A stretch of DNA of 23,846 nt from a virus (IMGVR_UViG_3300017987_000360:1-23846), one strand, 5' to 3'. Shown: positions 1-23,790, counted from the first letter of the stretch. Numbers and translations are program-made. The notes: generated from the sequence alone by a model not told the origin.

Positions 1-678
1 GACGGCATCGCTCACGAACACGGAAGCGATGAAGAATGGGGCGTTGAATGTAAGTGTACGACGTGGCGGATGTACGACGCCCACGGGGACAGCGAAGACG
101 CGTTTGGAGAAGACGGAACGGATCAGGTGCCAACGGTGTATTTGTTGCAAGGGCACTGGCAGATGGCGGTCATGGGATGGGACCGCGTGGACTTTCCGGT
201 CTTGTTCGATGGTTCGAAGTTGCGTGTGTATTCAATACGCCGAAACGAAGACATCATCGAACAGCTGATCCAGTCGGGGAAGAATCTGATGGAACAGATT
301 CTGGCAGGGACGCCCCCCGATCCGGAATGGTCCCACGATGGAACAGCCGGGGCGATTCGGGCGCTGTATGGATTCAACGCGGAAACGGACGCGGTGGAAC
401 TGGATGACAGCCACGAAGCCCTGTGGTGGCAGTACAAAGAACTCGGCGCCACGATCAAGGAAATAGAAGCGAAGAAGTCCGAAATTCACAATCGGCTTCT
501 GGCCAGTTTTCGCGGGGCGGCCGTGGCGGAATTCCCGAACGGCCAGAAGTTGAAGCGTTCCGTGATCGCTGACAGTTACGTCACGGAAGAAGACGTCGTG
601 AAGTTCGCGGAACGTGTCGGGGAAGTGAAACGCAAGGGCCACGAACGCCTGTCAGGTCCACGGAAGCGGAAGGATTGA
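1..678 (+). CDS. YqaJ-type phage exonuclease, 3' part (gene begins before the window)
   Basis: The reading frame is open from the first base, so the gene is cut at the window edge and 225 codons remain. Near the start is GVECKCTTW, the E-x-K half of a PD-(D/E)xK nuclease site. It is followed by a Gln-containing helix (QGHWQMAVMGWDR) and a segment like the YqaJ viral recombinase C-terminus (RVDFPVLFDGSKLRVYSI, RRNEDIIEQLIQ, then GTPPDPEW). In this family the enzyme digests duplex DNA to expose single strands for an annealing protein, and a RecT-like gene does follow. The C-terminal 70 or so residues are helical and basic. The call rests on motif order. The N-terminal part is not visible, so family membership is likely but not proven; a related PD-(D/E)xK phage nuclease is the alternative. 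Confidence 0.8.
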   Translation, partial: DGIAHEHGSDEEWGVECKCTTWRMYDAHGDSEDAFGEDGTDQVPTVYLLQGHWQMAVMGWDRVDFPVLFDGSKLRVYSIRRNEDIIEQLIQSGKNLMEQILAGTPPDPEWSHDGTAGAIRALYGFNAETDAVELDDSHEALWWQYKELGATIKEIEAKKSEIHNRLLASFRGAAVAEFPNGQKLKRSVIADSYVTEEDVVKFAERVGEVKRKGHERLSGPRKRKD

Positions 679-694
679 CCTTGCCCCCGGAGTG

Positions 695-721
695 ATCCCG
701 TCCGGGCTCCCCAAACGGGAT
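695..721 (+). other. Short hairpin just upstream of the tRNA-like element
   Basis: ATCCCGT (695-701) pairs perfectly with ACGGGAT (715-721) around a 13-base loop. It lies between the exonuclease stop codon and the tRNA-like structure. No T-tract follows, so a simple intrinsic terminator is not supported; an RNA processing signal is possible. Confidence 0.4.
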
Positions 722-725
722 ATCT

Positions 726-795
726 GCCGTGATGTGTATGGGAACACGCCTGACAGGACGTCAGGAAAAGCCGGGTTCGAATCCCGGTCGCGGCT
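726..795 (+). tRNA. tRNA-like element with a non-canonical anticodon loop (GGA position)
   Basis: A full cloverleaf can be drawn by eye. The acceptor GCCGTGA (726-732) pairs with TCGCGGC (788-794), with one G-U. The D stem GTGT/ACAC (734-737/744-747) has a short loop containing GGG. The anticodon stem CCTGA/TCAGG is at 749-753/761-765. The T stem CCGGG/CCCGG (771-775/783-787) has the canonical loop TTCGAAT. The seven-base anticodon loop is CAGGACG: position 33 is A instead of the near-universal U, and positions 34-36 read GGA (Ser), yet there is no long variable arm as expected of tRNA-Ser. No CCA is encoded. It sits in the 152-base gap between the exonuclease and RecT genes. It is either a degenerate tRNA or a tRNA mimic. 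Confidence 0.6.
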
Positions 796-830
796 TTCAG
801 ATCACCACTTGAAATGGAAAGAAGAACAAC

Positions 831-1868
831 ATGGCAAACGCACTATCAACATGGCTTAGTCAGGGCGAAATTCGGGACCGCATCGGGAAGGCGCTGGGGA
901 AGTCGTTCGATCCGGACTTCTACATCGAACAGATTCTGATTGCGTTGAACCATCCCACGCTGGCCCTGTGTTCCGACGAATCGAAGTTCAAGGCGGCCCA
1001 CACTTGCGCGGCGTTGGGGATGTTGCCTTCCATGCAACACGTTGCCCTGATCCCCCGGAAGATGAAGGGGAGCGGGGAAGAAGTAACGGTCATGCCACAG
1101 TGGCAAGGGCTGGCGGCGTTGATGTTGCGTCACCCGAACGTCCAGCGTATCAGCCATTCGCTGGTTCATCCGACGGACGAATTCGAATTCGATGGGACCA
1201 CACAGACGGTAACACATCACCAGTTCGACCCATTCGGGGACCGGGAATTCAAGACGCCAGCCGACATCCGTGGTGGTTATATCACTGTGTTCTTCAAGGA
1301 TGGACAACCCCCCGTTTTTCACACGGTGAAGGCGTCCACGATTGCGAAGGCTCGCAAGTGTGCGCAGGCCGACAACATCTGGAAGAACTGGTTCGAAGAA
1401 CAGTGTATCAAAACCCTGTATCGAAACGCGTTCGCCCGTCGTGTGGTGCCGATCGATCCGATGTTGAATCAGTTACAGATTCAGGCGGCGCTGGCTCAGG
1501 AAGATGAAGTTCTGGAAAACAACCCGGATCGCGTGGCGGAACCAGCCAGCAACGGGCGGGCCATCCCGGCCCCTGTCAGCCGAACGGCGGCCGTAGCGGG
1601 ACGACTTCGAGCCCCGGCCACGACACCAGACCAGGCGGAACAGATCGACGCCACACCGGACGACGCCCCGGAAGTCGTGGTGTTGGAAGACGAAGCCACA
1701 GACGGGCTATTCGAAGAACTGAAGGCGGCGGTTCTGTCGGCGGCATCCGTGGAAGAACTAAACGCGGCCAGTCAGGCCATGGCGAAAGATGCGGGCAGTC
1801 TGACGAATTCGCAACTGGCGGAACTGACCGGCCTGATGGACACGGCGGCGGACGCCCTGAAGAAGTAA
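831..1868 (+). CDS. RecT-family single-strand annealing protein
   Basis: The 345-residue product has the RecT pattern. An N-terminal helical region contains DFYIEQILIALNHPTLALCS. Then come a small/aromatic stretch (AAHTCAALGMLPSMQHVALI), the conserved core VTVMPQWQGLAALMLRHPNV, and VFFKDGQPPVFHTV with KNWFEEQCIKTLYRNAFARR. RecT proteins pair complementary single strands during phage recombination and usually sit next to an exonuclease, as here. The tail after about residue 225 is Ala/Pro/acid-rich and likely disordered, ending in a short helical segment. The ATG is preceded by a purine-rich stretch (GGAAAGAAGAA). Family assignment is confident; the specific annealing activity is inferred. Confidence 0.87.
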   Translation: MANALSTWLSQGEIRDRIGKALGKSFDPDFYIEQILIALNHPTLALCSDESKFKAAHTCAALGMLPSMQHVALIPRKMKGSGEEVTVMPQWQGLAALMLRHPNVQRISHSLVHPTDEFEFDGTTQTVTHHQFDPFGDREFKTPADIRGGYITVFFKDGQPPVFHTVKASTIAKARKCAQADNIWKNWFEEQCIKTLYRNAFARRVVPIDPMLNQLQIQAALAQEDEVLENNPDRVAEPASNGRAIPAPVSRTAAVAGRLRAPATTPDQAEQIDATPDDAPEVVVLEDEATDGLFEELKAAVLSAASVEELNAASQAMAKDAGSLTNSQLAELTGLMDTAADALKK

Positions 1869-1899
1869 CGCGACATCCATGGTGGGTGTTGGACCATTC

Positions 1900-1914
1900 G
1901 CGCCATCGTGGCGC
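1900..1914 (+). other. Small GC-rich hairpin in the intergenic gap
   Basis: GCGCCA and TGGCGC (1900-1905 and 1909-1914) form a six-pair stem with a TCG loop between the RecT gene and the next gene. There is no strong T-run after it. It could modulate transcript stability; its function is unknown. Confidence 0.3.
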
Positions 1915-1940
1915 TGTCTTATTGCTGAAGGACGGGAGAA

Positions 1941-2381
1941 ATGGCAGGAACACGAAAACAACTAACGCGGGCCGAAGCCGTGAAAGTGGGGGCGGTTCTG
2001 ATCGGGAAGGCCGACACGATCAACCAGTTGAACATTCGGGAGATCGGAACGATTGTGAAGCAATCAGACTGTGGCGTGAAAGTCAGTGAAGGCCAGTTGC
2101 GCCATCTACTGAAGGATTGCGGGCTAACCTACCTGTCGCGTCGGGGTGAACGGCGGGCGGGAAGTCAGACCATGGCCGACAAACTGGTTACGATCGCGAA
2201 GGCGATTCGAGAACTGGCACAGGCACAGGGCCACGAACTCAGCCAGATCGGCGAACTGAACGCGATCATCGGGCGAAAGGCGGTTCCGGGGGCCAGTGAA
2301 ACCCCCACGGAACCCGAGGAAACGGAAGACACGAACGGAACGGATGTCCCATCACGGTTCCGATTGTCGGCCCACGGCTGA
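1941..2381 (+). CDS. Small protein of unknown function in the recombination block
   Basis: This 146-residue protein has a GGACGGGAGAA ribosome-binding region before the ATG; a similar GGACGGGAG lead precedes the next gene. Residues 5-75 are charged and helical (RAEAVKVGAVLIGKADTINQ, then GVKVSEGQLRHLLKDCG), suggesting a small winged or helix-turn-helix fold. A middle helix (residues 80-105) follows, and the C-terminus is Pro/Glu/Thr-rich and probably disordered. I do not recognise the family. Its position between recombination genes suggests a DNA-metabolism accessory, but that is context only. Confidence 0.65.
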   Translation: MAGTRKQLTRAEAVKVGAVLIGKADTINQLNIREIGTIVKQSDCGVKVSEGQLRHLLKDCGLTYLSRRGERRAGSQTMADKLVTIAKAIRELAQAQGHELSQIGELNAIIGRKAVPGASETPTEPEETEDTNGTDVPSRFRLSAHG

Positions 2382-2427
2382 TCGATCGGGAATTCTTTTC
2401 ACACACACAGGACGGGAGAACGGCACA

Positions 2428-3540
2428 GTGGCAACAGCAACAGAAGAAACCACGGAGATCATCGAACAGCCAGTCCAGCCACTTAGCGTGGTGGATCAGT
2501 TGGAAGTGTTCGTGAAGGAAACGGACGAAGCCATCGCAACAATGGCGGACGACTTCGCGGGGCTGGAAGTGACGGACGTGGACGATACGGCCGTCGTGGC
2601 CAAAGTCACGGAAGCCCACAAGCGCGTGAAGGCGGTACGCGTGAAGGTGGAAAAGACACGCAAGGCATTAAAAGAAGACGCGTTGAAGTGGGGCCAGCTG
2701 GTCGACAAACAGGCGCGGCGGCTGAAGGAAGCCATAGCGCCGATCGAAGGCCGACTGAAGGCCGAACGGGATAAGGTGGACGCGGAGAAGGCCAGGCGGA
2801 AGGCCCAAAGGGACGCGGAACGGGCGGCCCGTCTACAGGATCGCGTGGACAAACTGACGGCCGTGGGCGGGGACACGACCGGGGACGGAACCAGCCTGGC
2901 GGTTCTGGGATCTATGGCAGACTCGGACTTCGAAGCGCTGTTGAAACACCAGACCGAAAGCTACGCGGAACAGCAACGCGTGGAGAAGATCCGAGCGGTG
3001 GCGGAAGAAGTGGCCGGGAAGCTGACGGAGTACGGCCGGAACGTCACGGCGGAAGAATTGCTGGATGTGCCCCACGATGACCAGTGGGAAATGGTGAAGG
3101 CGGCCCGCGAAGCCTTCGAAGAACGCCAGGCGGAAGAACAGAAGGCCCGCGAAGAACAGGAAGCCCGGGAACAGAAGGAACGGGAGAAACTGGAAGCGAA
3201 GCTGAAGGCACAACAGGACGAACTGGACCGGCTGAAAGCGCAGGAAGAAGCCCGGGAAGAAGAAGAACGGAAACGACTGGAAGCCGAAGAAGCCCAGCGG
3301 CGGGAAGAAGAAGAACGGAAACTGGAACAGGAACGCGAACGCCAGGCGGCGGAAGAAGAAGCGGCCCTGAAAGCTCAGGAAGAAGCCCTGAAGCCGATTC
3401 GGGAACAACTGGCAGCGTTCGCGGTCGTCGTCGAATCGATGGACATCCCCAACACGTTGATAGATGACGCGATCGACTACGCGGCCGACATCCAGCGAAT
3501 CCTGAACGACGCGGCGGAACAGATCCGAACGCTGGTGTAG
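2428..3540 (+). CDS. Long coiled-coil phage protein (DUF1351-like)
   Basis: The frame stays open upstream to 2296, but that part overlaps the previous gene. The GTG at 2428 follows GACGGGAGAA at a suitable distance, so it is the chosen start, giving 370 residues. The N-terminal third contains KTRKALKEDALKWGQLVDKQ and ARRLKEAIAPIEGRLKAERD, the pattern of phage DUF1351-like proteins found in recombination or early operons. Residues about 225-335 are a very long, highly charged coiled coil rich in Glu, Lys, Arg and Ala. A short hydrophobic/acidic C-terminal region follows (AAFAVVVESMDIPNTLIDDA). The function is not established; a structural or DNA-associated accessory role is possible. Confidence 0.75.
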   Translation: MATATEETTEIIEQPVQPLSVVDQLEVFVKETDEAIATMADDFAGLEVTDVDDTAVVAKVTEAHKRVKAVRVKVEKTRKALKEDALKWGQLVDKQARRLKEAIAPIEGRLKAERDKVDAEKARRKAQRDAERAARLQDRVDKLTAVGGDTTGDGTSLAVLGSMADSDFEALLKHQTESYAEQQRVEKIRAVAEEVAGKLTEYGRNVTAEELLDVPHDDQWEMVKAAREAFEERQAEEQKAREEQEAREQKEREKLEAKLKAQQDELDRLKAQEEAREEEERKRLEAEEAQRREEEERKLEQERERQAAEEEAALKAQEEALKPIREQLAAFAVVVESMDIPNTLIDDAIDYAADIQRILNDAAEQIRTLV

Positions 3541-3597
3541 GAGACAGGTTAAGCGGGGAAGCCGGAATGCTATTCCATCAAAACAAAAGGCACAGGC

Positions 3598-3626
3598 TTG
3601 ACGGCCCGGAGAGACGGGCATCTGAC
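3598..3626 (+). other. GAGAGA-loop hairpin upstream of a small gene
   Basis: GCCCG (3604-3608) pairs with CGGGC (3615-3619) around the loop GAGAGA, with TGAC just before and just after. A very similar element is at 7223-7250, where the stem changes one C-G pair to G-U while the loop is unchanged. It lies about 20 bases before the start at 3646, inside the untranslated leader. Confidence 0.4.
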
Positions 3627-3645
3627 ACACACGAAAGGAAACACC

Positions 3646-3813
3646 ATGGGACGCGGCGAACCAAAAGACAGGACACACTGGAAGAACGAAGCGGACGCCC
3701 CTGTCCCGACAGTGACGGATCAGAAACCCGTGAAGCCACTACCTGGCCAGATGGGATTATTTGGAAACGATTCTCGGTCCACGGCCCCCGAAGACGAAAC
3801 GGGGACGAAATGA
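3646..3813 (+). CDS. Small 55-residue protein of unknown function
   Basis: The ATG is preceded by AAAGGAA at good spacing. The product is short and polar with Pro, Lys, Asp and Thr, and contains PLPGQMGLFGND near the C-terminal half. That resembles a short binding motif such as a clamp-binding QxxLF peptide (here QMGLF), although this is a suggestion from a five-residue pattern only. The stop codon overlaps the next start as ATGA, so translation is probably coupled to the DUF1643 gene. No domain is recognised. Confidence 0.6.
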   Translation: MGRGEPKDRTHWKNEADAPVPTVTDQKPVKPLPGQMGLFGNDSRSTAPEDETGTK

Positions 3814-4307
3814 AGTGGGATCTTCAGGAATCCGGGGCGATGTTTTCGTCCTGTCGCGTGTGGCGGTATTCGCTGTGGCGGCGATGGGGCGGGACGGTGA
3901 ATCGTCCCCTCGTGGCGTTCGTGGGCCTGAACCCATCCACGGCGGACGAAACACAGGACGATCCCACCGTCCGGCGATGTATTCAGTTCGCGAAGGACTG
4001 GGGGTTCGCGGGAATGTTCATGTTGAACGCCTACGCCTTCCGAGCAACGGACCCGCGCGTGATGCAAGCGGCCCCGGACCCGGAAGGGCCAGCCAATAAT
4101 TCAACACTGGCCTACTGGGGCGAACACGTTGACCTGATCGTAGCGGCCTGGGGGAACCATTGCACAGACGAACGGCAGGCCGAAATCTGCAAGGTGATCG
4201 GGCGGCCGATTCACTGTCTGGGAACCAACAAAACAGGGAAGCCGAAGCATCCCCTATATCTGTCATCCAACACCACAACGGAACTTTTCTGGGAACCACG
4301 GGCATGA
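3810..4307 (+). CDS. DUF1643 family protein
   Basis: The start is the ATG that overlaps the previous stop by four bases, giving 165 residues. The sequence carries the family's order of motifs: CRVWRYSLWRRWGG near residues 15-28, then VAFVGLNPSTADETQDDPTV with RRC, then WGFAGMFMLNAYAFRATDP, the segment EGPANNSTL and AAWGNH near residue 115. DUF1643 proteins are widespread in phages and bacteria and their biochemical activity is not established. The next gene again starts in an ATGA overlap, so this is a translationally coupled group. Confidence 0.87.
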   Translation: MKWDLQESGAMFSSCRVWRYSLWRRWGGTVNRPLVAFVGLNPSTADETQDDPTVRRCIQFAKDWGFAGMFMLNAYAFRATDPRVMQAAPDPEGPANNSTLAYWGEHVDLIVAAWGNHCTDERQAEICKVIGRPIHCLGTNKTGKPKHPLYLSSNTTTELFWEPRA

Positions 4308-5272
4308 TGCCGGAACAGATCACACAACAGGCCGAAGAAACCGAAGAAGAACTGTTCGCCCGATGCCGGGCGGCCCTGTCGGACAGCGACTGGACGACGG
4401 GCGAATGTGCCAGCAAGTGGACGGAGAAGTTTTCGCGGGGCCGAACGGATGAAGACTTCGGCCGACGTGTTGGGCTGTCAGGGGAACAGGTCCGGCAACG
4501 GCGGACGGTCTGGGAACGGTTCGGAAGTTCCAATTCAAATTGGAAAGTGTCGTTCACACATCACTACACGGCCATGAACTGGCCGGACTGCGAAGACGCC
4601 CTGACATGGGCCGAAGACACCGGGGCCACAGTGGCCGAAATGAAGGCATGGCACAGGGCCAGAAACGGGGAAGATCTGACACAGCCGGAAGCGGACCCTG
4701 TCACCACGCCCACGATCACGGCCCCGGAACCCGACGAACCGATCTGGAAGCCAGCGGAGAATCCACAGGCCCCGAAGAAGACACAGCCAGCGGCCACATC
4801 GACGAAGGCCACGAAGACGGAGAAGGGGCCACGGAAGGCCCCGAAAAACAAGCCCGATCCACATGCTGTGATCCCCGTGGTTCCGATTGCGGACCAGATC
4901 ACGCTGAAGGCCGGAATTGACATGGTCGCGAAGACGATTCGGAAACTGTCAGCGGTCACGGACATGAAACAGAGACGGCGGGGCGCTCAGAAGCTGAGAA
5001 AACTGGCGGACGAAATGGATCCCCCAGCCACAGACATTCCCCCTCGGATCGAAGACGTGGCGGCCTACTGTGCGGAGAACGCGCCGGACGTGTGCCCCCA
5101 CAAGTTCTGGTTCTTCTATGACCAGAAGGGGTGGACTGTGGACCGGGAAGGTAAACAGATCATGCGGAAATGGACGTCGGCAGTGATGCGGGCACAACAC
5201 GAAGGCTACTTCAAAGGAACAGCGAGCAATGGACAGCCAGGCGATAACAGTTACGGAAGTGTCCCGTTCTGA
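4304..5272 (+). CDS. Probable phage replication-organiser protein
   Basis: The ATG at 4304 overlaps the previous stop; a second ATG follows at once, so 322 or 321 residues result. Residues about 30-75 look like a DNA-binding helical region (DEDFGRRVGLSGEQVRQRR). A second helical block, TAMNWPDCEDALTWAEDTGA with VAEMKAWHRA, follows. The middle (about 130-200) is Pro/Lys/Thr-rich linker. The C-terminal 50 residues (VAAYCAENAPDVCPHKFWFF, YDQKGWTVDR, then MRKWTSAVMRA) resemble the small C-terminal module seen in many phage replication-initiation proteins (YC...FYDYYESKGW...WKAAV). A perfect 18-base palindrome lies inside the coding region at 4528-4545. Replication function is inferred from the C-terminal module and position. 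Confidence 0.65.
   Translation: MMPEQITQQAEETEEELFARCRAALSDSDWTTGECASKWTEKFSRGRTDEDFGRRVGLSGEQVRQRRTVWERFGSSNSNWKVSFTHHYTAMNWPDCEDALTWAEDTGATVAEMKAWHRARNGEDLTQPEADPVTTPTITAPEPDEPIWKPAENPQAPKKTQPAATSTKATKTEKGPRKAPKNKPDPHAVIPVVPIADQITLKAGIDMVAKTIRKLSAVTDMKQRRRGAQKLRKLADEMDPPATDIPPRIEDVAAYCAENAPDVCPHKFWFFYDQKGWTVDREGKQIMRKWTSAVMRAQHEGYFKGTASNGQPGDNSYGSVPF
4528..4545 (+). repeat. 18-base dyad TTCCAATTCAAATTGGAA, copy 1
   Basis: Arms TTCCAATT and AATTGGAA are separated by CA. This copy is inside the probable replication gene and is translated as SSNSNWK. It shares a longer flank with copy 3 (GGAAG before, AGT after). All four copies in the window have the CA in the same orientation. Confidence 0.9.
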
Positions 5273-5885
5273 ATCCGTCACCTGGGGCGATGTGCTGGAC
5301 GATTGCAGCGCCCTGATGACGAAACAGGAATTCTGGGAACTGTTGTGTGGATTATTCGACGCGGCGGGATGGAAGCCCCCCACGCGGGAACGTGGGCGTG
5401 TGTGGTATCTGGCCCTGTCCGATGTGACGGCCCCGGAATTCGCCAGGGCCATCGGAGTCTATGCCAGACAGCATTCGAAAGAATTCCTTTCCATCCAGCT
5501 GATCCGGGAACTGGCCGGGGTTCAGACCACCACGGAAGACGCGGCGGTGTTGGCGTGGGACGCGGTCCTGAAGGCAATTCGACAGTACGGGGCCTACTAC
5601 TCCGTCCAGTTCGAAGATCCAGCCATCAGCGCGGCGATCGACGCCATGGGGGGATGGGTGGTGTTATGCAACAAGACATCCGAAGAACTACTGAAGTGGA
5701 CGCCCAAAGAATTTCAGAAGATCTATCGGGCGATGTCCAACACCAGCCGGGCGGCGGTCCCTTTGGTGGGCGTGATCGAACGGAACAATGGGTTTCTCGG
5801 ACATCGTGGGGCGGCGGTCCCCGTGGCCCACATCGGGGAAGCCGTGAACAGTTACAAAACCATTGAAGCACAAGGGGTGAAGTAA
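5229..5885 (+). CDS. Phage protein of unknown function, possible DUF6475-like
   Basis: The ATG at 5229 follows AAAGGAACAGC and overlaps the preceding gene by 44 bases; an in-frame GTG at 5259 is the alternative. The 218-residue product has an N-terminal part with KQEFWELLCGLFDAAGWKPP and a central block with RQYGAYYSVQFEDPAISAAI, AMGGWVVLC and LLKWTPKEFQKIYRAM. This resembles a family seen beside phage replication genes (gGYYSV.F.DP.I..aI..MGGW), but the name is from memory and its function is unknown. Codon use matches the phage core. Its TAA stop forms the first bases of the attC-like element, so the foreign island starts exactly at the gene's end. Confidence 0.7.
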   Translation: MDSQAITVTEVSRSESVTWGDVLDDCSALMTKQEFWELLCGLFDAAGWKPPTRERGRVWYLALSDVTAPEFARAIGVYARQHSKEFLSIQLIRELAGVQTTTEDAAVLAWDAVLKAIRQYGAYYSVQFEDPAISAAIDAMGGWVVLCNKTSEELLKWTPKEFQKIYRAMSNTSRAAVPLVGVIERNNGFLGHRGAAVPVAHIGEAVNSYKTIEAQGVK

Positions 5886-5968
5886 CGCCCATTTTTACCG
5901 GGTTGCCGCGTGTGGCTTCCCACTTCAGAAAGGTGTGCCGGCAACTCCGGTACAAAATATTGTTATGC
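5883..5968 (+). repeat. attC-like recombination site 1 (integron cassette type)
   Basis: The element begins TAACGCC and ends GTTATGC, the positions of the outer attC core boxes. Inside, ACCGGGTTGCCG (5897-5908) pairs with CGGCAACTCCGGT (5939-5951) as a 12-pair stem with one extra-helical T, a hallmark of attC folding. The terminal part contains another small hairpin, GTGG/CCAC (5912-5915/5920-5923). A homologous element of the same length with conserved arms and a different centre is at 7352-7438. No integron integrase is visible in the window. Confidence 0.65.
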
Positions 5969-6594
5969 CGCTGCTGTTGGATCTGTACTGCAAAGCTGGA
6001 GGTGCCGCGATGGGCTACCACCGTGCAGGATTCGATGTTGTTGGCGTGGATATTGAGCCGCAGAAGAATTACCCGTTTGAGTTTTTTCAGGCGGACGCGA
6101 TTGAATACCTGAAAAAAAACGGCCGGCGGTTTGATGCGATACACGCAAGCCCACCGTGCCAAGCGTACAGCAACGCGGCGAAGATTATGAAACAGAAACA
6201 CCCCGAATTAATCGAAGCGACACGGCAAGCAATGCCGGCCAAACCGTGGGTGATTGAGAACGTGGAAGGATCGCCATTGATTGATCCGATAGTGTTGTGC
6301 GGGTATTCGTTCGGGCTGGGAACGTATCGCCACAGACTGTTTGAATCGTCGATTAAGGTGACAGCACCGAAGCACCGAGACCACGACAAACGAACGACGA
6401 AAATGGGACGACCGCCACAACCGGGCGAGATGATGCACGTCGTCGGGAATTTCAGCGGCGTTGATCAGGCTCGCCGAGCGATGGGGATCGACTGGATGAC
6501 ACGAGACGAATTGCGGGAGGCCATACCACCCGCGTACACAGAGTATTTGGGCTGGCAACTTCGAGCCGCGTTGATGCTTCGATTGTCGGCATAA
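5965..6594 (+). CDS. Small cytosine-C5 DNA methyltransferase
   Basis: The ATG lies inside the attC core GTTATGC and gives 209 residues, the compact size typical of phage-borne orphan enzymes. Visible motifs are the SAM-binding motif I LDLYCKAGGAAMGYHRAGF (residues 5-23), motif II VVGVDI, the catalytic motif IV SPPCQ (Cys65), motif VI ENV (98-100), the motif VIII-like RHRLFE (122-127), and the C-terminal AIPPAYTEYLG (motif X). It should transfer a methyl group to C5 of cytosine; the target sequence cannot be read, and the target-recognition region is very short. There is no Shine-Dalgarno sequence before the start. It uses GAG codons freely, unlike the phage core, which fits acquisition on a cassette. 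No restriction endonuclease is nearby. Confidence 0.9.
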   Translation: MPLLLDLYCKAGGAAMGYHRAGFDVVGVDIEPQKNYPFEFFQADAIEYLKKNGRRFDAIHASPPCQAYSNAAKIMKQKHPELIEATRQAMPAKPWVIENVEGSPLIDPIVLCGYSFGLGTYRHRLFESSIKVTAPKHRDHDKRTTKMGRPPQPGEMMHVVGNFSGVDQARRAMGIDWMTRDELREAIPPAYTEYLGWQLRAALMLRLSA

Positions 6595-6623
6595 CGCTTC
6601 GGATCAACTGAAAGGAGATAGCT

Positions 6624-6971
6624 ATGGTTGGAACGTACTACTGTGAGCGGTGCCAATGCCCGCACCCGAAGATAATGCCATGCCCGTCAGTTGCATCCGA
6701 TTGTTCCGGTGCGGATGACCGGCAATCGGATGTGGAGCGTAGCGGAAATCCGAAGCGTTCCGGCGACAGCCGTTTTGATTCTGCGATATCAGCAATGTTG
6801 CGGGCCGCGTCGGAAATGCTGCGTCTTAGTGGCCATGATGAGATGGACTGCGAACGCGATCTAGCAGTTGAGTTGATGAAAATGGGGAACCGTCTGAAGT
6901 GGTACACCATAGAACTACGCCGAGTCAAAGCGAATCAAAACCAACGGGCACAGGTCACTGACGGACAGTGA
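6624..6971 (+). CDS. Unknown 115-residue protein, cassette-borne
   Basis: A strong AAAGGAGATAGCT precedes the ATG. The N-terminus has Cys and His spacing CERCQCPHPKIMPC, with a further Cys at SDC, suggesting a small metal-binding segment. A polar linker (residues 30-50) follows, then a helical region (FDSAISAMLRAASEMLRLSG, then VELMKMGNRLKWYTIELRRV). I do not recognise the family. The gene lies 29 bases after the methyltransferase and 22 bases before the second attC-like hairpin, so the two genes may share a cassette. Codon choice (GAG, TTG, GTT) differs from the surrounding phage genes. Confidence 0.6.
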   Translation: MVGTYYCERCQCPHPKIMPCPSVASDCSGADDRQSDVERSGNPKRSGDSRFDSAISAMLRAASEMLRLSGHDEMDCERDLAVELMKMGNRLKWYTIELRRVKANQNQRAQVTDGQ

Positions 6972-6993
6972 CACCCCGTCGCCGGAACGCTAT

Positions 6994-7060
6994 GCGTAAC
7001 GGGACGGCACCCGTTGACGATCTATTTCATGTCGGCGGGATGTGCCGTTCCCGTTGACGC
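6994..7060 (+). repeat. attC-like hairpin 2
   Basis: The left arm GCGTAACGGGACGGCAC (6994-7010) pairs along its full length with the right arm GTGCCGTTCCCGTTGACGC (7042-7060), apart from two single extra bases, both on the right arm. The outer parts read GCGTAAC and GTTGACGC, like the attC core boxes. Two unpaired bases on one arm are characteristic of attC folding. The core GTTGACG departs from the strict GTTRRRY pattern, so confidence is moderate. It differs in sequence from sites 1 and 3. Confidence 0.5.
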
Positions 7061-7072
7061 AATTGTTCATTT

Positions 7073-7216
7073 GCTTGGATGTGTAGAGGGATCACTTAGG
7101 TCATGGAACGTATGCCATTGACGATCTTAGAGGTTGCCCGCGAGCGGGGTCGAAACTCGCGTAGACTTTCGGAAGTAGGGGCATCACGTTGTCGGGTTCG
7201 ACTCCCGGCCCAAGCT
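7073..7216 (+). ncRNA. tRNA-like element A (acceptor, D and T arms; enlarged middle)
   Basis: The T arm TCGGG-TTCGACT-CCCGG (7192-7208) has a canonical T loop and is followed by CCCAAGC, which pairs six of seven with GCTTGGA at 7073-7079. After that 5' strand comes T-GTGT-AGAGGGAT-CAC, matching the D arm layout of the element at 726-795. The region between the D and T arms is far larger than in a tRNA and contains its own hairpins, for example CGCGAG/CTCGCG (7139-7144/7156-7161) and ACTT-TCGG-AAGT. No standard anticodon arm is seen. It may be a tRNA remnant, an interrupted tRNA or a tRNA mimic. Confidence 0.4.
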
Positions 7217-7222
7217 ATTGAG

Positions 7223-7250
7223 TGACAGCCGGGAGAGACTGGCAAGTGAC
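7223..7250 (+). other. Second GAGAGA-loop hairpin
   Basis: GCCGG and CTGGC (7228-7232 and 7239-7243) close the same GAGAGA loop as the hairpin at 3598-3626, again flanked by TGAC on both sides. One stem pair differs as G-U in place of C-G, so pairing is kept. Confidence 0.4.
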
Positions 7251-7344
7251 CGGGCCACCACGGGGGCATCTGGGTAAAGGGTAGGCATAGCTAAGCCGTG
7301 GCATTTTGGCCTACCCACAGCGGGTTCGAGTCCCGATCCGGTCA
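7248..7344 (+). ncRNA. tRNA-like element B (acceptor and T arm, long central hairpin)
   Basis: GACCGGG (7248-7254) pairs with TCCGGTC (7337-7343), with one G-U, as a seven-pair acceptor. Next to it is a T arm CGGG-TTCGAGT-CCCG (7321-7335) with a canonical loop. A three-pair D-like arm (CCA/TGG at 7258-7260/7271-7273) has a loop holding GGGGG. Instead of an anticodon arm there is a perfect eight-pair stem GGGTAGGC/GCCTACCC (7279-7286/7309-7316) with a 22-base loop. At 97 bases it is longer than ordinary tRNAs. It lies between the second and third attC-like sites. Confidence 0.45.
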
Positions 7345-7351
7345 ATCAAAT

Positions 7352-7438
7352 GAACGCTTAAATCACCGGGTTGCCGCCGGTGACGTTGAGTTCATTTTCC
7401 GCGTGGTCGGCAACTCCGCGTGTATTTTTTTGTTATCG
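7352..7438 (+). repeat. attC-like recombination site 3, homologous to site 1
   Basis: The element reads GAACGC, then ACCGGGTTGCCG (7365-7376), a variable centre, CGGCAACTCCG (7408-7418) and TTTTTGTTATC. Arm sequences, spacing and total length (about 85 bases) match site 1, while the centre is unrelated, which is the usual behaviour of attC sites. Its centre can also form TCACCGG/CCGGTGA and AAATGAAC/GTTCATTT pairings. It precedes the gene at 7448. Confidence 0.6.
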
Positions 7439-7447
7439 GGTATTGCG

Positions 7448-7768
7448 ATGGATTACACGGACAGCGAACAAGGTCAGCATGAGTTGATGCAGGCCGAAAA
7501 CGATGAACACTACAGCGTGCCGGAAGGCTACGCGGAAATGATGGATCGACTGGGAAACCCCGATTGCTGGGATGTACCGGGATTGATTAGCGACACAGCG
7601 GAACGCCTGCGGCGGGAGTCGATTGACGGTGAGATGCTTGCAGTGATTGACACGTTGACGTTTCGGATGGCGGACATTTGCAAGATGATCGACGCGGAAG
7701 AAAAACCGAATTACGAGATCATCAGCAAGGTCTACGAAGTGGCAGCACGGCTGACCATATCCCGATAA
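7448..7768 (+). CDS. Unknown 106-residue acidic protein, cassette-borne
   Basis: An open frame extends further upstream but would run through the attC-like site, so the ATG at 7448, which lies 12 bases after the GTTAT core, is the likely start. The product is acidic and mostly helical: residues 8-35 carry QHELMQAENDEHYSVPEGYA, and residues 47-85 include DTAERLRRESIDGEMLAVID and FRMADICKMIDAEEK. I recognise no domain. Codon use includes GAG and TTG as in the methyltransferase. The stop lies in GATAACTTGTTAT, where TAAC and GTTAT core-like words are almost adjacent; this could be a collapsed attC. Confidence 0.6.
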   Translation: MDYTDSEQGQHELMQAENDEHYSVPEGYAEMMDRLGNPDCWDVPGLISDTAERLRRESIDGEMLAVIDTLTFRMADICKMIDAEEKPNYEIISKVYEVAARLTISR

Positions 7769-7817
7769 CTTGTTATTTAACTGCGCGCTCGTTTAACACG
7801 GTCGCGATGAACAGAGA

Positions 7818-7835
7818 TTCCAATTCAAATTGGAA
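7818..7835 (+). repeat. 18-base dyad TTCCAATTCAAATTGGAA, copy 2
   Basis: Perfect copy lying 50 bases after the last cassette gene. It is followed by ACCGA, the same flank as copy 4 at 23793. Confidence 0.9.
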
Positions 7836-8049
7836 ACCGACATAGGCCCACCAGACGGGCAACACACGTTTGCGAGCGTGGAAGGCACGGACGGCCCTGA
7901 ATAGTCCAGAATATCGATCGCCGTGGAACCTTCACGATTCCCGCCACGGGCCAACGATCGACGCGGCAGGAATAGCCAACAGCCACTACCGCGTTTTGAA
8001 TGTGCTGTGAGCAGGTCAAGCGGTCATCACTCGGATGCCTTGCGGCTTG

Positions 8050-8076
8050 CCGGTTCCCCTTTCACTGGGGAATCGG
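8050..8076 (+). other. Strong hairpin with a possible alternative pairing
   Basis: CCGGTTCCCC (8050-8059) and GGGGAATCGG (8067-8076) form a ten-pair stem with one G-U around a seven-base loop. The bases TTCACTGGGG (8061-8070), which include part of the loop and stem, can instead pair perfectly with CCCCAGTGAA (8118-8127). The two folds exclude each other, as in an RNA switch or attenuator, but no known riboswitch class is recognised. Confidence 0.4.
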
Positions 8077-8165
8077 TGCGCGCAGCCAGCCTGGATGTTT
8101 GCGGAACAGGCGGTCAACCCCAGTGAAGACATGCTGAAGGCCGTAAACCGGAGCGAAACCGGAAG

Positions 8166-8183
8166 TTCCAATTCAAATTGGAA
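8166..8183 (+). repeat. 18-base dyad TTCCAATTCAAATTGGAA, copy 3
   Basis: Perfect copy whose flanks (GGAAG before, AGT after) equal those of copy 1 at 4528, so the shared block is longer than the palindrome itself. Confidence 0.9.
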
Positions 8184-8306
8184 AGTCGACAGGCGAAACG
8201 GATTCGCCAGTGTTTTCGCTGATGATCGACGGGGGAGGGGGTGAAACCCTACAGGATCGACGGGGACGGAATTCGACGTTTGTTCGACAGTTCGCGGGCC
8301 TTCATC

Positions 8307-8368
8307 TTGACAATTGACCAGCCGGGGCCACACTCCACGCGACAACTATTGTGACAACATTGTGACAA
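8307..8368 (+). promoter_or_regulatory. Possible late-operon promoter and tandem operator
   Basis: A consensus TTGACA (8307-8312) has only a weak -10 candidate (CACACT, 8329-8334) at 16 bases. Downstream are two copies of the odd-length palindrome TTGTGACAA (8349-8357 and 8360-8368), 11 bases apart, about one helical turn, as expected of protein binding on one face. They lie 27 bases or more before the start of the first late gene at 8395. This is a plausible control site; it is not proven. Confidence 0.35.
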
Positions 8369-8394
8369 GATCGCCACAAACGGAGTGCCTGACG

Positions 8395-8751
8395 ATGACG
8401 AAGGAAGAACTGGTTCGGCGTATTGTCCCCATTCTGAACAACCGAATCGACATCCTGGGCGACTGGGTATCTGAAGAAACCGAAGCGGAGATCCTGACTT
8501 CGGCGGTGATGGCGGTCGCTGGCCAGATCCCAATGGAAGCCCGGCCGTTTCTGGTCGACGCGGCGGATGGCCTGACGGACGAAGAACGGGACCGATACGC
8601 GGCTGTGACGCTGGACATGGCGGTCGCTTCGACGCTGGCAGCGGTTCCGGCGTGGGTTCGTGGCTTCGTGGAAGGCCCGGCCCGGGATGCCCTGAAACCT
8701 GTGATCGACGAAGTGTTTCGATTCGCCCAGAAAGGGCTGGCTATCGCATGA
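8395..8751 (+). CDS. Unknown 118-residue protein, first gene of the late operon
   Basis: The frame is open from 8314, but the ATG at 8395 follows CGGAGTGCC, a fair ribosome-binding site, and lies after the operator-like repeats. The protein is helical and rich in Ala, Val and acidic residues (LVRRIVPILNNRIDILGDWV, then SAVMAVAGQIPMEARPFLVD and AVASTLAAVPAWVRGFVEGP). It has no clear signal peptide or long transmembrane segment. It ends in an ATGA overlap with the next gene. No family is recognised. Confidence 0.65.
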   Translation: MTKEELVRRIVPILNNRIDILGDWVSEETEAEILTSAVMAVAGQIPMEARPFLVDAADGLTDEERDRYAAVTLDMAVASTLAAVPAWVRGFVEGPARDALKPVIDEVFRFAQKGLAIA

Positions 8752-9023
8752 TCGACTTAGACACCACGACAATCGTTCAGGGAATCGCGTTGGTGGTGGG
8801 CCTGTTGACGGCCTACGGAGCGAAGGCGGACGGGTTCAGGCGTTTCATCAGCCGATTCACCACGAAGGCCACACAGGAACGCATGGCGGAAGCCAACAAG
8901 GATGCCGCCTGGCGTGAACTGATCGACGACAGCCGAGCCCGGAAGTGTGCGCGGTCGGTCGAATTGCTGAACCAGTGGATACAATTACGGACATCAGACG
9001 GGCTGGATGGCCTGGAGGAATAG
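8748..9023 (+). CDS. Small single-span membrane protein
   Basis: This 91-residue product starts in an ATGA overlap with the previous gene. Residues 8-25 (TIVQGIALVVGLLTAYGA) form one membrane segment. The remaining 65 residues are charged and helical (ATQERMAEANKDAAWRELID). This is the shape of many small phage membrane proteins, including some holin or spanin-like types, but no family motif is visible. Its place before an exported protein and a protease fits a lysis or envelope group. Confidence 0.65.
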   Translation: MIDLDTTTIVQGIALVVGLLTAYGAKADGFRRFISRFTTKATQERMAEANKDAAWRELIDDSRARKCARSVELLNQWIQLRTSDGLDGLEE

Positions 9024-9028
9024 CGGCC

Positions 9029-9436
9029 ATGCGAACAACGATTCTGATAGTGTGCGCCCTGGTCGTGTTGGTTCCGTTGACGTTTCAGAAGCAACAACCC
9101 ACGCCAGACCCATCGCCCGCCCCAGATGAACTGTCCGAACTGGCTGTGGAGATTCAGACCGCCCTGGAAGGCCAGCCGGACGACATGGCGGCCCGATATG
9201 CGGGATGGTTCCGAGCGATCGCGGACACACTGGCGAACGGGGATGAATCCATCCCACAGCTACGGAAGGCATGGGTGAAGGCGGACCAGATTATCGACCT
9301 TCCGGGCGTGTTGGGTGACATCGTCAAACGGGAAACAGCGGACTACGAAACAACGGGCGTGGATCGGGATGACTACGCGGCCGTGTGGGTGAAGCTGGCG
9401 GACGCCTGTGAAGAACTGACGACTGGGGGCGACTGA
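9029..9436 (+). CDS. Small exported or membrane-anchored protein
   Basis: The ATG follows TGGAGGAATAGC. Residues 1-19 (MRTTILIVCALVVLVPLTF) are a signal peptide or N-terminal anchor. A Gln/Pro-rich linker (QKQQPTPDPSPAPDE) leads into a helical domain of about 95 residues (LSELAVEIQTALEGQPDDMA, YAGWFRAIADTLANGDES, then a Tyr/Asp-rich end). There is no Cys in a lipobox position that I would trust, although C9 lies in the hydrophobic segment. The function is unknown. It sits five bases before the protease gene, so coexpression is likely. Confidence 0.65.
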   Translation: MRTTILIVCALVVLVPLTFQKQQPTPDPSPAPDELSELAVEIQTALEGQPDDMAARYAGWFRAIADTLANGDESIPQLRKAWVKADQIIDLPGVLGDIVKRETADYETTGVDRDDYAAVWVKLADACEELTTGGD

Positions 9437-9441
9437 AGCCC

Positions 9442-10410
9442 ATGGCCAAGATCTGGATTCCACGTCAGAAGTTCGACGTTCCGGAACCACGGAACGCGGC
9501 GGATCGCGCGCAGCTATGCGGGTTCAACCTGGAAGAAGCCATTCGGTACTGGGATTCCAGCCAGGCGGCGGATGATCACGAACGGTTCTTCATCGCGGGG
9601 GCCACGACGGCCCGGCCAGACACGGTTCGTCTGTGGGAACTGTGGCGGGAGATCACGGGCATGGACCCGGATTGCACGCCCCAGCCTACGGGAAACTGTG
9701 TGGCGGCGGCATCCGATGACGTGGTCCAGGGCACGATGTGTGCTGACATCAAAGCGGGCGACCGCGAAGAATGGCGGGACATCCACAGCGCGTTCCACTA
9801 TGCCACAGGCCGTGTGTTGATCGGAAAGAACAGACTTCGCGGCGGTCCCGGATCCATCGGGGGCTGGCAGGCGAAAGCACACAAGGAATATGGCGTTCTG
9901 GCGATATCGGACGGGCTCCCGAACTACACGAAGAAGAACGTGGACGCGTGGGGCGATGACAAGCCAGCACAGGGCCAGACGTTCCGCGAACACATGCCAG
10001 CGGCGGCGGACTTCCTGATCAAGTCAACGGCCCAGGTGACGACGATGTCCGAAGTCATGGACAGCCTGGCAAACAATCACTTCCTGACGATCGCTTCGAA
10101 CTGTGGCTACACGATGAAGGCGAAAGGCGGGGAACGTGGCTTCCATCGGCCATCGGGGAACTGGTCCCATCAGATGTCGATCTGGGGCTACTCTGAGAAG
10201 TACGATTGGATTGCCATCAAGAACCAGTGGGGGCGCTCAGCACACGGGCATTTAGTAGACCTGGAAACAGGCGACCCGTGGCCCCCCGGATTCCTGCGTG
10301 TGCGGCTGGAAGACTTTGAACGGCATCATCTGCGGGGTTCGGAGTGTATCGCCTACAGTCGCTTCAAAGGGTTCCCGGAACAGCGGTTCGATCATTCGGT
10401 GCTGGGATGA
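9442..10410 (+). CDS. Papain-like (C1-type) cysteine protease
   Basis: The 322-residue product carries the papain-like triad in order. Q81 and C86 are in QPTGNCVAAA, H243 is in NWSHQMSIWGY, and N261 is in IKNQWGR, the equivalent of the papain NSWG motif. There is no evident signal peptide; residues 1-70 are a polar region and residues 265-322 a Pro/Arg-rich tail. Papain-fold peptidases cleave peptide bonds; the substrate here is unknown. The gene is surrounded by small membrane proteins, so a role in breaking down the host envelope is attractive, while virion protein maturation is the alternative. The next gene starts in an ATGA overlap. Confidence 0.8.
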   Translation: MAKIWIPRQKFDVPEPRNAADRAQLCGFNLEEAIRYWDSSQAADDHERFFIAGATTARPDTVRLWELWREITGMDPDCTPQPTGNCVAAASDDVVQGTMCADIKAGDREEWRDIHSAFHYATGRVLIGKNRLRGGPGSIGGWQAKAHKEYGVLAISDGLPNYTKKNVDAWGDDKPAQGQTFREHMPAAADFLIKSTAQVTTMSEVMDSLANNHFLTIASNCGYTMKAKGGERGFHRPSGNWSHQMSIWGYSEKYDWIAIKNQWGRSAHGHLVDLETGDPWPPGFLRVRLEDFERHHLRGSECIAYSRFKGFPEQRFDHSVLG

Positions 10411-10646
10411 ACGACGAAACGAACGGCTGTGGACAGCCATCCGGTGATGGTATGCGAAGCCCGGATCATCCCATCTGGCGGCTACTTCAGACGATCGTGT
10501 ATCTGATCGCGGCCGGTGTGTTCCTGAAGATGAACGCCACGTCGTTCGACTGGGACGGGGAAGGCGTCGTGTTGCTGGAACTGGCGGTCCTGTTCTTTGG
10601 CACAGAAGGCGTCAAGCAACAACTGAAAGCAAGGCGGAACGGATGA
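10407..10646 (+). CDS. Small membrane protein, holin-like in shape
   Basis: The 79-residue product has a polar N-terminus and two hydrophobic stretches (LLQTIVYLIAAGVFLKMNA at about 31-49, and VVLLELAVLFFGTEGV at about 57-72), then a short basic tail (KQQLKARRNG). Two spans, a length under 100 residues and a charged tail are typical of holins, but the family cannot be identified. It overlaps the protease stop codon by four bases and overlaps the following gene likewise. Confidence 0.6.
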   Translation: MNDETNGCGQPSGDGMRSPDHPIWRLLQTIVYLIAAGVFLKMNATSFDWDGEGVVLLELAVLFFGTEGVKQQLKARRNG

Positions 10647-11779
10647 CCAGAAACAACAAACAGAAGCCCAGCCGGATCAGTTGGGGGGATCTGTTGATCG
10701 TGGTGGCGATTATCGTGGTTTTCGCGTGGGTTCTGTCGACGGCCAGCGGTGGGGACGATGTCAGTTATCACCACGCGCGTTCGGCCATTGCTATCGCCCA
10801 CGGACTGACGGAGAACGCGCCGGACTCGGACACATGCCCCGCCTGTGATGGTCGGGGGGAAGTCGGCGACGGTCGAACGGTCATCAGATGCGAAGAATGT
10901 GACGGGACAGGAAAGAAACAGACCGGGGATTTCATCGAAATCGAATTCCAGCCGGTGATCGAAGCGGAAACTGTCGAACCCCCTGGCGAACCAGAACCCC
11001 TGATCGAACTACCCCCATCGCCCCCTGTCGTGGTGGAATGGTCCACGGAAGAAGCCCCCACAGCTGGGCCACGTCTTCCGCGTGTGCTGATGTTGACGTC
11101 TGACGCGTGTTCGCCCTGCCGGCGTGTGAAGGCGGAATCCGGGGATCTGATCGGGGACGCGTCGGCGGCCATAGAAGCCGTGGATGTTCTCGAGAACTCG
11201 AGCTATCCCAGCGGATACGGCATCCGGGCGGCCCCATCTATTCCCACGTTTGTTGTGTTGAATGAAGACGGGGGGGAAGTCTCGAGGCTAACGGGGTATC
11301 AATCCCGGGGAACTCTCGAGTGGCTTCTGCAACGCCACCAGGTCAATCAGGCGATCACGACATCCGAACCGGGCGTGACGGCCACGATTCACGCGGAACC
11401 CACCGTAGCGGCCGGGCTGGAAGCGCTGGCGTTGCATCTGGGACGACAGGAAGACGCGGCGGCCGTCCCTGTGGGCGGTCTATTCGATCGTGACGTGAAG
11501 ACGCCCGTGATCGTCCCGGAACTACTACGGCAATTGATGGCCGGGGACGTGGTGAACATCGAAGACGCGGGGATCCAGATATCGTGGATCGGGGATCGGC
11601 GATCGATCGTCCTGGAAGACACAGAACACGTCGTTTTCAAGCCCCCCGCTACTGTCAAACTGACGAAGTGGGGCCTGACAGTCGGAACCGCCCTGAATGG
11701 TGTGGGAGTAACGGACAACGGACGAACGGTTCGGTTCAATCTGACCGGCCCCGACTTCACTGTGAGATTCGTACCATGA
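10643..11779 (+). CDS. Membrane-anchored zinc-finger/thioredoxin-like fusion protein
   Basis: The 378-residue product combines parts rarely seen together. Residues 14-33 (WGDLLIVVAIIVVFAWVLST) are an N-terminal anchor. Residues 65-90 are a DnaJ-type cysteine pair region (CPACDGRG and CEECDGTG). A Pro/Glu-rich linker covers about 105-145. Residues 147-235 are thioredoxin-like: LMLTSDACSPCRRVKAE holds the CSPC pair (C156, C159), and APSIPTFVVLN holds the cis-Pro position (P201). Residues 240-378 form an unrecognised, beta-rich C-terminal domain. The likely role is disulphide or redox chemistry outside the cytoplasm, inferred from the CxxC site and the anchor. It starts in an ATGA overlap. Confidence 0.75.
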   Translation: MTRNNKQKPSRISWGDLLIVVAIIVVFAWVLSTASGGDDVSYHHARSAIAIAHGLTENAPDSDTCPACDGRGEVGDGRTVIRCEECDGTGKKQTGDFIEIEFQPVIEAETVEPPGEPEPLIELPPSPPVVVEWSTEEAPTAGPRLPRVLMLTSDACSPCRRVKAESGDLIGDASAAIEAVDVLENSSYPSGYGIRAAPSIPTFVVLNEDGGEVSRLTGYQSRGTLEWLLQRHQVNQAITTSEPGVTATIHAEPTVAAGLEALALHLGRQEDAAAVPVGGLFDRDVKTPVIVPELLRQLMAGDVVNIEDAGIQISWIGDRRSIVLEDTEHVVFKPPATVKLTKWGLTVGTALNGVGVTDNGRTVRFNLTGPDFTVRFVP

Positions 11780-12156
11780 AACACGCGATCACATCCCGCG
11801 AAGCTGAGGACGTCATCTGTTCGGACCCGGTTTTGATGCGCCGAGTCAGTGACGCGATCCGATCAACGGACACGCCAGCGATTCACCGGGACACGGCGCG
11901 GCGGTGTGTGGCCCATCTGACAGCGTCGGGCTGGCTTCCAACACTCCGTCCGTTCGGCGGTGACGAAGCGGGGTGGGTGTCCCTGGACGAACTGGTCGAA
12001 CTGGAAGCGCGTTCAGCGTTTCGGAATTGCGAGAAGGAAGGCCTGATCCCCAGCGGGTTTCTGGCCCCGCTGTTGTACTGGGGGTTACGCCAGGCAGTGT
12101 GGGCGGTGCTGGTGTGGGTGATTCGGTCACAACTCACGGAAGAACAGAAACCATGA
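11776..12156 (+). CDS. Unknown 126-residue protein with C-terminal membrane segment
   Basis: The ATG overlaps the previous stop. Residues 1-75 look like a soluble helical domain with a DNA-binding flavour (ITSREAEDVICSDPVLMRRV, HRDTARRCVAHLTASGWLPT). Residues 95-115 (FLAPLLYWGLRQAVWAVLVW) are hydrophobic and probably membrane-inserted, leaving a short charged tail. No family is recognised. The combination of a soluble head and a C-terminal span is unusual, and its membership of this operon points to an envelope function. Confidence 0.6.
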   Translation: MKHAITSREAEDVICSDPVLMRRVSDAIRSTDTPAIHRDTARRCVAHLTASGWLPTLRPFGGDEAGWVSLDELVELEARSAFRNCEKEGLIPSGFLAPLLYWGLRQAVWAVLVWVIRSQLTEEQKP

Positions 12157-12434
12157 ATCAGAGTTCAGGGATGAATCCCATTATTCAATTCGGCGATCGG
12201 TACGGGCCCTACGCGTTCGGCGTGATGGCGTTGTTGCTGATCTGGTTCGTGATCGTCAGGCCGGAACTGGCCAGATCGAAAACGGACTACGAAGAATTCA
12301 ACCGTGGCGCTCAGGTGTTGCGTGACACATCGCAGACGATGCGAATCACGGCCGACGTGATGGAACGAACATCGATTCGGCTGGAACGCATGGCCGAACA
12401 GGAACGGCGGGTGGCGTCAGGGGTTGGGGATTGA
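12153..12434 (+). CDS. Small single-span membrane protein with coiled-coil tail
   Basis: The 93-residue product begins in an ATGA overlap. Residues 20-40 (YAFGVMALLLIWFVIVRPEL) span the membrane. Residues 45-88 are a charged amphipathic helix (TSQTMRITADVMERTSIRLE, RMAEQERR). This architecture is seen in phage holin partners and spanin-like proteins, but no family motif is visible. Its stop overlaps the next ATG by one base. Confidence 0.65.
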   Translation: MNQSSGMNPIIQFGDRYGPYAFGVMALLLIWFVIVRPELARSKTDYEEFNRGAQVLRDTSQTMRITADVMERTSIRLERMAEQERRVASGVGD

Positions 12435-13024
12435 TGAAGAACACGCTTCACACTTTAGTAGCCGGAACCGGCCTGGTCGTATGTATCGGGTGGTTGGCAG
12501 GAGTGGATTCGCTGACGCGCGTGATCCCCGGGGCCGTCACGATGAAGTTCGTAACGGCTATGTCATTCATTCTGGCGGGGATCGGTGGGCTCGGACATCG
12601 ACAGGAAACAACGGGCCAGATGATCTATCGCCACGGAATGGCCATGGTTCTGTTCTGTCTACAGGTGGCAATTCTGTTGATAGGCCCGCCTGTGTTATTC
12701 GAAAACGAACAAGCGATCCATTCAGCGAAGCCGGGGGAACCGTCCATGATGACCGTGGTAGGTTTCATGTTGTGTTCGTTCGTGATGTGGGCGATGCCAA
12801 ACGCCAGCGTCTCGCGAATCGGTCTAGGCCTGATCTTCATCGGGGCGGTCGCCGTGGTGGGCCACGTCACTTCCTGGCATTCATTGCAGTGGTACATCCC
12901 GGGGGAGTCGTCGGCGATGGCAATACACACGGCCATCGGGTTCGTGTGTCTGGGGGTCAGTTATCGGCGAGCGGCCAGACAATACATCAGTTGTGAGAGG
13001 ATCAACCCGCAATGGGATTCATAG
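12434..13024 (+). CDS. Polytopic membrane protein of unknown function
   Basis: The ATG at 12434 overlaps the previous stop (TGATG); a TTG one codon earlier is a less likely start. The 196-residue product has about five or six hydrophobic segments, including TLVAGTGLVVCIGWLAG, KFVTAMSFILAGIGGLG, HGMAMVLFCLQVAILLIGPP and SRIGLGLIFIGAVAVVG. The last portion, SLQWYIPGESSAMAIHTAIG with FVCLGVSYRRAA, resembles the membrane domain of some sensor kinases, but no signalling domain follows. It is unusual in a phage operon and may be a captured host domain. Its 3' end overlaps the tail-fibre gene by 13 bases. Confidence 0.65.
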   Translation: MKNTLHTLVAGTGLVVCIGWLAGVDSLTRVIPGAVTMKFVTAMSFILAGIGGLGHRQETTGQMIYRHGMAMVLFCLQVAILLIGPPVLFENEQAIHSAKPGEPSMMTVVGFMLCSFVMWAMPNASVSRIGLGLIFIGAVAVVGHVTSWHSLQWYIPGESSAMAIHTAIGFVCLGVSYRRAARQYISCERINPQWDS

Positions 13025-14208: not shown

Positions 14209-14209
14209 G

Positions 14210-15789: not shown

Positions 15790-15800
15790 AGGCGACAACA

Positions 15801-23718: not shown

Positions 23719-23790
23719 CGCAGCGTGGGGAAGTAGTATCCCGTCGGGTTCATATCCCGAAGATCATCGGTGCAATTCCGGTCGCTGCCA
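23719..23790 (+). tRNA. tRNA-Met(CAT), initiator type
   Basis: A cloverleaf is clear. The acceptor is GCAGCG/CGCTGC (23720-23725/23783-23788) with an unpaired C1-C72. The D stem GGGA/TCCC (23728-23731/23739-23742) has loop AGTAGTA. The anticodon stem TCGGG/CCCGA (23744-23748/23756-23760) has loop TTCATAT, so the anticodon is CAT. The T stem ATCGG/CCGGT (23766-23770/23778-23782) has loop TGCAATT. Three consecutive G-C pairs next to the anticodon loop and the broken 1-72 pair are the classical initiator marks, and the central part resembles bacterial tRNA-fMet. Oddities are a D loop lacking GG and no encoded CCA. It follows the scaffold gene by eight bases. Confidence 0.85.

Follow-up and report, generated by a model that had tools for sequence, protein, structure and literature searches.

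We consider it likely that a cluster of gene cassettes in the early region of a viral genome is an integrase-less integron array belonging to a temperate tailed phage, served in trans by the integron integrase (IntI) of the host, and filled with reverse-coded cassettes that are selected by the direction of transcription. The array occupies positions 5886-7768 of what we call the window, i.e. the whole stretch of 23,846 nucleotides of viral DNA analysed here. The attC sites, the cassette boundaries, the variation between sister phages, the sharing of cassettes and the gene polarity described below are features of the nucleotide sequence itself.

The phage and the flanks of the island

Positions 1-16748 of the window are identical, over the stretches compared, to a record of 39,364 bp, and the coordinates are consistent with the window being the first 23,846 bases of that record, reversed. 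The record encodes a terminase, portal, head protease, tape measure protein, RecE, RecT, RusA, CsrA and a P4-type integrase; the structural genes, together with RecE/RecT and the integrase, identify it as a temperate tailed phage, whose host, to judge from the type of attC site alone, is probably a planctomycete. Neither the window nor the 39-kb record has an intI gene over the cut-off. The island is preceded on the left by a phage gene of the DUF6475 family (5229-5885, plus strand; PF20081, E 1e-12), which uses GAG as rarely as the rest of the phage and has its TAA stop at the left junction. A search for promoters gave no match in the island region. The palindrome TTCCAATTCAAATTGGAA occurs in four copies (4522-4548, 7812-7838, 8160-8186 and 23787-23813), one of them about 45 bp to the right of the island, and these copies are possibly phage operators or some other regulatory site. 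The phage genome also contains tRNA-Ser(gga), called by ARAGORN, and tRNA-Met(cat), called by both ARAGORN and Rfam, at 726-795 and 23719-23790 of the window.

Four attC sites in the window

The original prediction described an attC cluster without intI in a tailed-phage early region, made of two homologous elements (5883-5968 and 7352-7438). Both are present at these places with the arms described, and the scores of the covariance model and the lack of intI bear the proposal out, except that the sites number four rather than two, the additional ones lying at about 6587-6711 and about 6980-7073. The model (R1) was built from bacterial copies only, nearly all of them planctomycete, and it gives the window sites attC1 to attC4 scores of 68, 9, 48 and 69 bits, far above background. 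All four are on the minus strand. The site attC1 (5880-5970; 68.3 bits) has a bulge on one arm, in agreement with the predicted stem with an extrahelical base, and its recombination point, G/TT on the classic (minus) strand, falls between 5885 and 5886. The site attC2 (6587-6711), with a long centre, reaches only 9.3 bits with the model (at 6594-6704), but the geometry scan recovers it as a stem with a bulge, and it has box matches to both adjoining cassettes. The site attC3 (6980-7073) scores 48.3 bits (E 2e-13; model match at 6982-7076), is found by the geometry scan and folds with a z-score of -3.3. The site attC4 (7347-7440; 68.8 bits) matches numerous host attC sites in blastn at 78-86% identity along its full length, the centre being part of the match, so that the centres are not simply unrelated, as had been thought; on folding, the expected hairpin is not its best structure.

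The scan for stem-plus-bulge geometry found three sites in the window, compared with 0.07 in Markov null sequences. The inverted repeats R''/R' and L''/L' with one or more extrahelical bases on one arm are present, attC2 being weak by the model and recovered by geometry. Judged by these features, the elements are attC sites; at least two lie close together and intI is absent, which is the arrangement of a CALIN and not that of a complete integron.

Relatives of the sites in Planctomycetota

Exact arms with free spacing, sought in public viral and bacterial collections, occur in 29 stretches of viral contigs and in 34 stretches of bacterial contigs, the latter almost all from Planctomycetota, mainly Pirellulales. 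All but about three of the matches have a common layout: a TAACG-type end, a spacer, ACCGGGTTGCCG, the centre, CGGCAACTCCG, a spacer and a GTTATGC-type end. Three bacterial matches to the exact pattern (L037, L040 and L056) lack ends of the attC kind and were discounted as chance matches. An alignment of 25 bacterial copies reveals a stem with bulges on one arm that is kept by paired changes: these host copies show 38 double-change cells where shuffles give 13.5, and the structure collapses when it is slid. An integron integrase exceeds the NCBIfam cut-off in 12 of the 15 element-carrying genomes and in none of the 14 controls; in Pirellulales genomes the arrays adjoin intI, with up to about 70 copies of the element in one genome. 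A model of planctomycete attC sites has been published by Ghaly et al. 2021 (PMC8352920). The sedentary chromosomal integrons of Planctomycetes, such as the array of Blastopirellula marina, share with the window the attC family, the bulge arm and a similar attI-side end, but they differ from it in that intI is adjacent and 113 of the 119 scored cassettes are coded with the polarity of their sites.

Cassettes and their cargo

Each cassette of an integron opens with TT and following bases that formerly completed its own attC, which makes the opening complementary to the R'' box of that cassette. The window contains four pairs of start and R'' box of this kind, arranged head to tail between 5962 and 7769, against a chance expectation of 0.12. 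Of these, three match exactly over 9 bases, and in cassette B, because attC2 has a long centre, the pair is either exact from 6757 or matched at 8/9 from the preferred R' at 6703. The island therefore consists of four cassettes, all on the minus strand. Cassette A (5886-6594; box pair GTTATGCCG at 5962 and CGGCATAAC at 6587) comprises attC1 and a gene for a C5-cytosine methyltransferase (5965-6594; PF00145, phrog_363), which is coded on the plus strand, against attC polarity, with its ATG inside one box and its TAA inside the next. The protein is 68% identical to methyltransferases of mycobacteriophages and has at best a weak likeness to anything in 294 planctomycete genomes; it therefore looks like a phage gene, whose product probably shields phage DNA from restriction. 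Cassette B (6595-6987; box pair to CGCCGGAAC at 6980) contains attC2 and a small plus-strand ORF of no assigned function, delimited by codon score (6732-6971, possibly from 6624). Cassette C (6988-7354; GTTCATTTG at 7065 and CAAATGAAC at 7347) contains attC3 and about 280 bp in which no clear ORF was found. Cassette D (7355-7768; GTTATCGGG at 7432 and CCCGATAAC at 7761) combines attC4 with another plus-strand ORF without an assigned function (7448-7768). The unusual codon use noted for the island genes is borne out by the counts, GAG making up 42% of Glu codons in the cassette ORFs vs 9% in the phage genes (p = 5e-6).

Cassette C (window 7073-7345) also contains tRNA-like stretches with a standard T arm (GGTTCGAGTCC) and an acceptor stem, and similar stretches border the arrays of phages G017 and G018 on the left (L107:10088-10185 and L103:13848-13947); they are called by permissive ARAGORN settings only, not by default ARAGORN or Rfam.

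To the right of the last cassette, the sequence AAC/TTGTTATTTAAC (7767-7800, minus strand) has a short resemblance to the ends that follow the last R'' box in host arrays beside intI, namely AAC/TTGTTTATAGG, AAC/TTGTAAATCTT or AAC/TTGGTTATCTC. The first 10 bases are AT-rich in both groups (79% in phage ends, 74% in host ends). This likeness is suggestive, and the right end of the window array may be an attI. A hairpin following it looks plausible by eye and was discarded, as it does not rise above background (mean z 0.18). In several phages (L107:11939-12010, L103:17488-17560 and L109:13230-13300) a palindromic motif of the form ATATGGAATTC.ACATATCACGG is repeated just past the array on its right.

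Arrays in other phages and the turnover of cassettes

The element was found in all 20 viral records tested, which had been picked because they carry it, mostly as arrays of 2 to about 15 copies. When terminase relatives of the window were fetched regardless of attC, one further record (G333) proved to have sites, so carriage is patchy. Several arrays adjoin early recombination or replication genes, including those for RecE, Sak4, a helicase, a primase and a replication initiator.

On both sides of the array, the flanks of the sister phages G017 and G021 agree at 94-96% identity, while the cassettes of the two phages differ. Conversely, the same cassette recurs in different phages, at 99% identity between G018 and G017, at 96% between G016 and L028, and in other cases too. 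In four of the six shared cases the gene moves with its left attC (84-96% identical) and never with the right one, which is the unit predicted by canonical attC polarity; in the remaining two the gene matches and neither attC does, which could be explained by homologous recombination. The possibility that the elements are fixed, non-mobile sequence, against which the original prediction was to be weighed, can be rejected for the group by G017/G021 and the shared cassettes. As for the window's own phage, the viral contigs yielded no empty-site sibling, i.e. no relative with its flank genes and no predicted junction. The terminase relative G328, whose record is free of attC and includes a homologue of the island's right-hand neighbour gene, was rejected as an empty site since its flanks are too diverged.

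These exchanges could in principle be the work of the phages alone. The sites may be attC by descent and now act as homology linkers of about 90 bp, at which annealing proteins of the phage (RecT, Sak4) shuffle genes with IntI uninvolved; the location of arrays beside RecE/RecT or Sak4 genes, phage attC sites alike enough to anneal, and the two shared cassettes that travel without either attC all agree with this. We nonetheless find it unlikely, given that the start and the R'' box of the same cassette are still matched, a mark of site-specific origin, that the cleavage point forms the end of four of the six units found in common, and that the stem is kept by paired changes in the host copies. 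A second option, that a tyrosine recombinase encoded by the phage moves the cassettes in place of host IntI, draws on the P4-type integrase of the 39-kb record and on weak tyrosine-recombinase matches in several viral records, near the array in G018 and G030. We regard it as quite improbable: the IntI cut-off is reached in none of the 20 viral records, the recombinases are found at differing places and sides of the arrays, and many arrays have none in the record.

Gene polarity in planctomycete-type viral arrays and in host arrays

Three marks give the direction of an attC site: the arm with the extrahelical base, which is known to set the recombining strand (PMC2727003), the end nearest intI or attI, and the unit that moves. 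The bulge is on the same arm in host (77:1) and viral (55:1) sites. In the window, the arm with the extrahelical base, the ends of the form TAACAA...CGTTA and the attI-like end all place the attC sites on the minus strand, and the island genes are on the plus strand, of opposite polarity. The canonical arrangement, with each gene in the direction of its attC, is therefore absent from the window, as it is from all planctomycete-type viral arrays tested. Among host cassettes, the ratio of genes with to genes against site polarity is 52:3 in a first set and 61:3 in a second (113:6 in total, a few loci of the same genomes being in both sets), and among viral cassettes it is 0:37, plus 0:2 in the terminase-found viral contig, so that all 39 run against. 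The split between hosts and viruses has a Fisher p of 1e-22 for the first set, with the qualification that independence does not hold between cassettes of one array, nor for some of the cassettes and contigs that are shared; counted by array, 12 of 12 viral arrays run against and 7 of 7 host arrays run with. Polarity was taken from codon-scored ORFs, which replaced noisy longest-ORF counts and crude ORF calls.

The same split bears on the origin of the records. Since these are metagenomic and have host-type attC sites, one might suspect host integron DNA that was mis-assembled or mis-binned into viral contigs. Phage genes of the same direction flank the island on both sides, the locus is present in sister phages, the coding direction is opposite to that of host arrays and the cargo is phage-type; with flanks, sister phages and polarity all against it, we have ruled contamination out and give it hardly any credence.

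Of the six rare host cassettes with reverse coding, four have matches among phage protein families, one of these being a methyltransferase; leakage of some cassettes from phages would produce such matches. A reverse-coded adenine methyltransferase cassette, 35% identical to a phage cassette gene, lies close to a broken intI in one host array (L099:2225-2977) and is a possible case of transfer between phage and host arrays. A 3.3-kb contig binned to Microbacteriaceae (L058, CAKZKU010000158.1) has planctomycete-type attC sites and reverse coding (3:0), and is probably a mis-binned piece of phage.

A model of the phage array

On our preferred reading, an integrase-less array served by host IntI, the enzyme would bind the folded single strand of the phage attC and, for as long as the phage genome is inside the cell, insert cassettes at the attI-like end or remove them there. 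This role for IntI is the most likely one given the sites and the assays published for attC sites of other phages (PMC9892861), and we infer that the right end works as an attI. The early operon of the phage would transcribe the cassettes, entering from the side opposite attI, which is most likely in view of the direction of the flank genes. With transcription from that end, only cassettes coded against attC polarity would be useful to the phage; these alone would be expressed and retained, and such selection by transcription direction, which we infer, would account for the measured polarity. Effects of the replication strand on attC folding are known (PMC8946536) and could contribute to the pattern. 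The cargo would be accessory genes of phage type, here the DNA methyltransferase, with a presumed anti-restriction role.

Relation to known phage and class 1 cassettes

Gene cassettes in the early region of a tailed phage were originally predicted to be unusual, which is partly right, as clusters of attC sites in phages have already been published: Qi et al. 2023 (PMC9892861) reported phage CALINs, methyltransferase cassettes and working attC sites. Among published phage arrays our comparison covered TJE1 alone. Tetrasphaera phage TJE1 is, like the phage of the window, a tailed phage with attC sites and cassettes but no intI, and methyltransferases are a cargo of phage CALINs as well. In TJE1, however, the genes follow attC polarity, whereas those of the window and of all tested planctomycete-type viral arrays run against it; an attI-like end in the window and variation between sister phages of the group are further points of difference from phage CALINs such as TJE1. 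Read along the strand of the gene, the attC sites of TJE1 and of the class 1 cassette aadA1 of plasmid R100 have the bulge in their 5' arm, which is the canonical polarity. The aadA1 cassette shares with the window the R''-L''-L'-R' layout, the bulge on one arm and the G/TT boundary, but there the attC comes after the gene and on the gene's own strand, opposite to the window. No convincing attC was found by the geometry scan in Pseudoalteromonas phage H101.

A limited literature search returned no description of systematic reverse coding, of cassette turnover between sister phages or of a phage cassette pool. What appears to be new is the presence of sites in no fewer than 20 viral records, where they often form arrays within early replication/recombination modules; the existence of sister phages that differ in cassettes and of the same cassettes in different phages; and the polarity split (39:0 viral vs 113:6 host) together with the attI-like end of the array.

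Implications

It is tempting to go further and propose that planctomycete phages keep an integron-like system of their own, with an attI-like landing site and a pool of reverse-coded phage genes that unrelated phages exchange via host IntI and that is separate from the host pool; we would give this even chances. The two pools would be kept apart because host cassettes are antisense in the phage and phage cassettes are antisense in the host. Integrons have been studied as bacterial gene-capture systems; phages appear to use the same machinery as a swap shop for accessory genes, including probable counter-restriction methyltransferases. The clean polarity split allows a cassette to be assigned to the phage or the host pool by a simple sequence test, and it has an explanation open to testing, namely that whatever transcribes the array decides which cassettes survive. 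That phage genes are made into cassettes bears on the question of where new cassettes originate. If the split is general, it would limit the spread of host cassettes by phages, at least in the planctomycete-type group.
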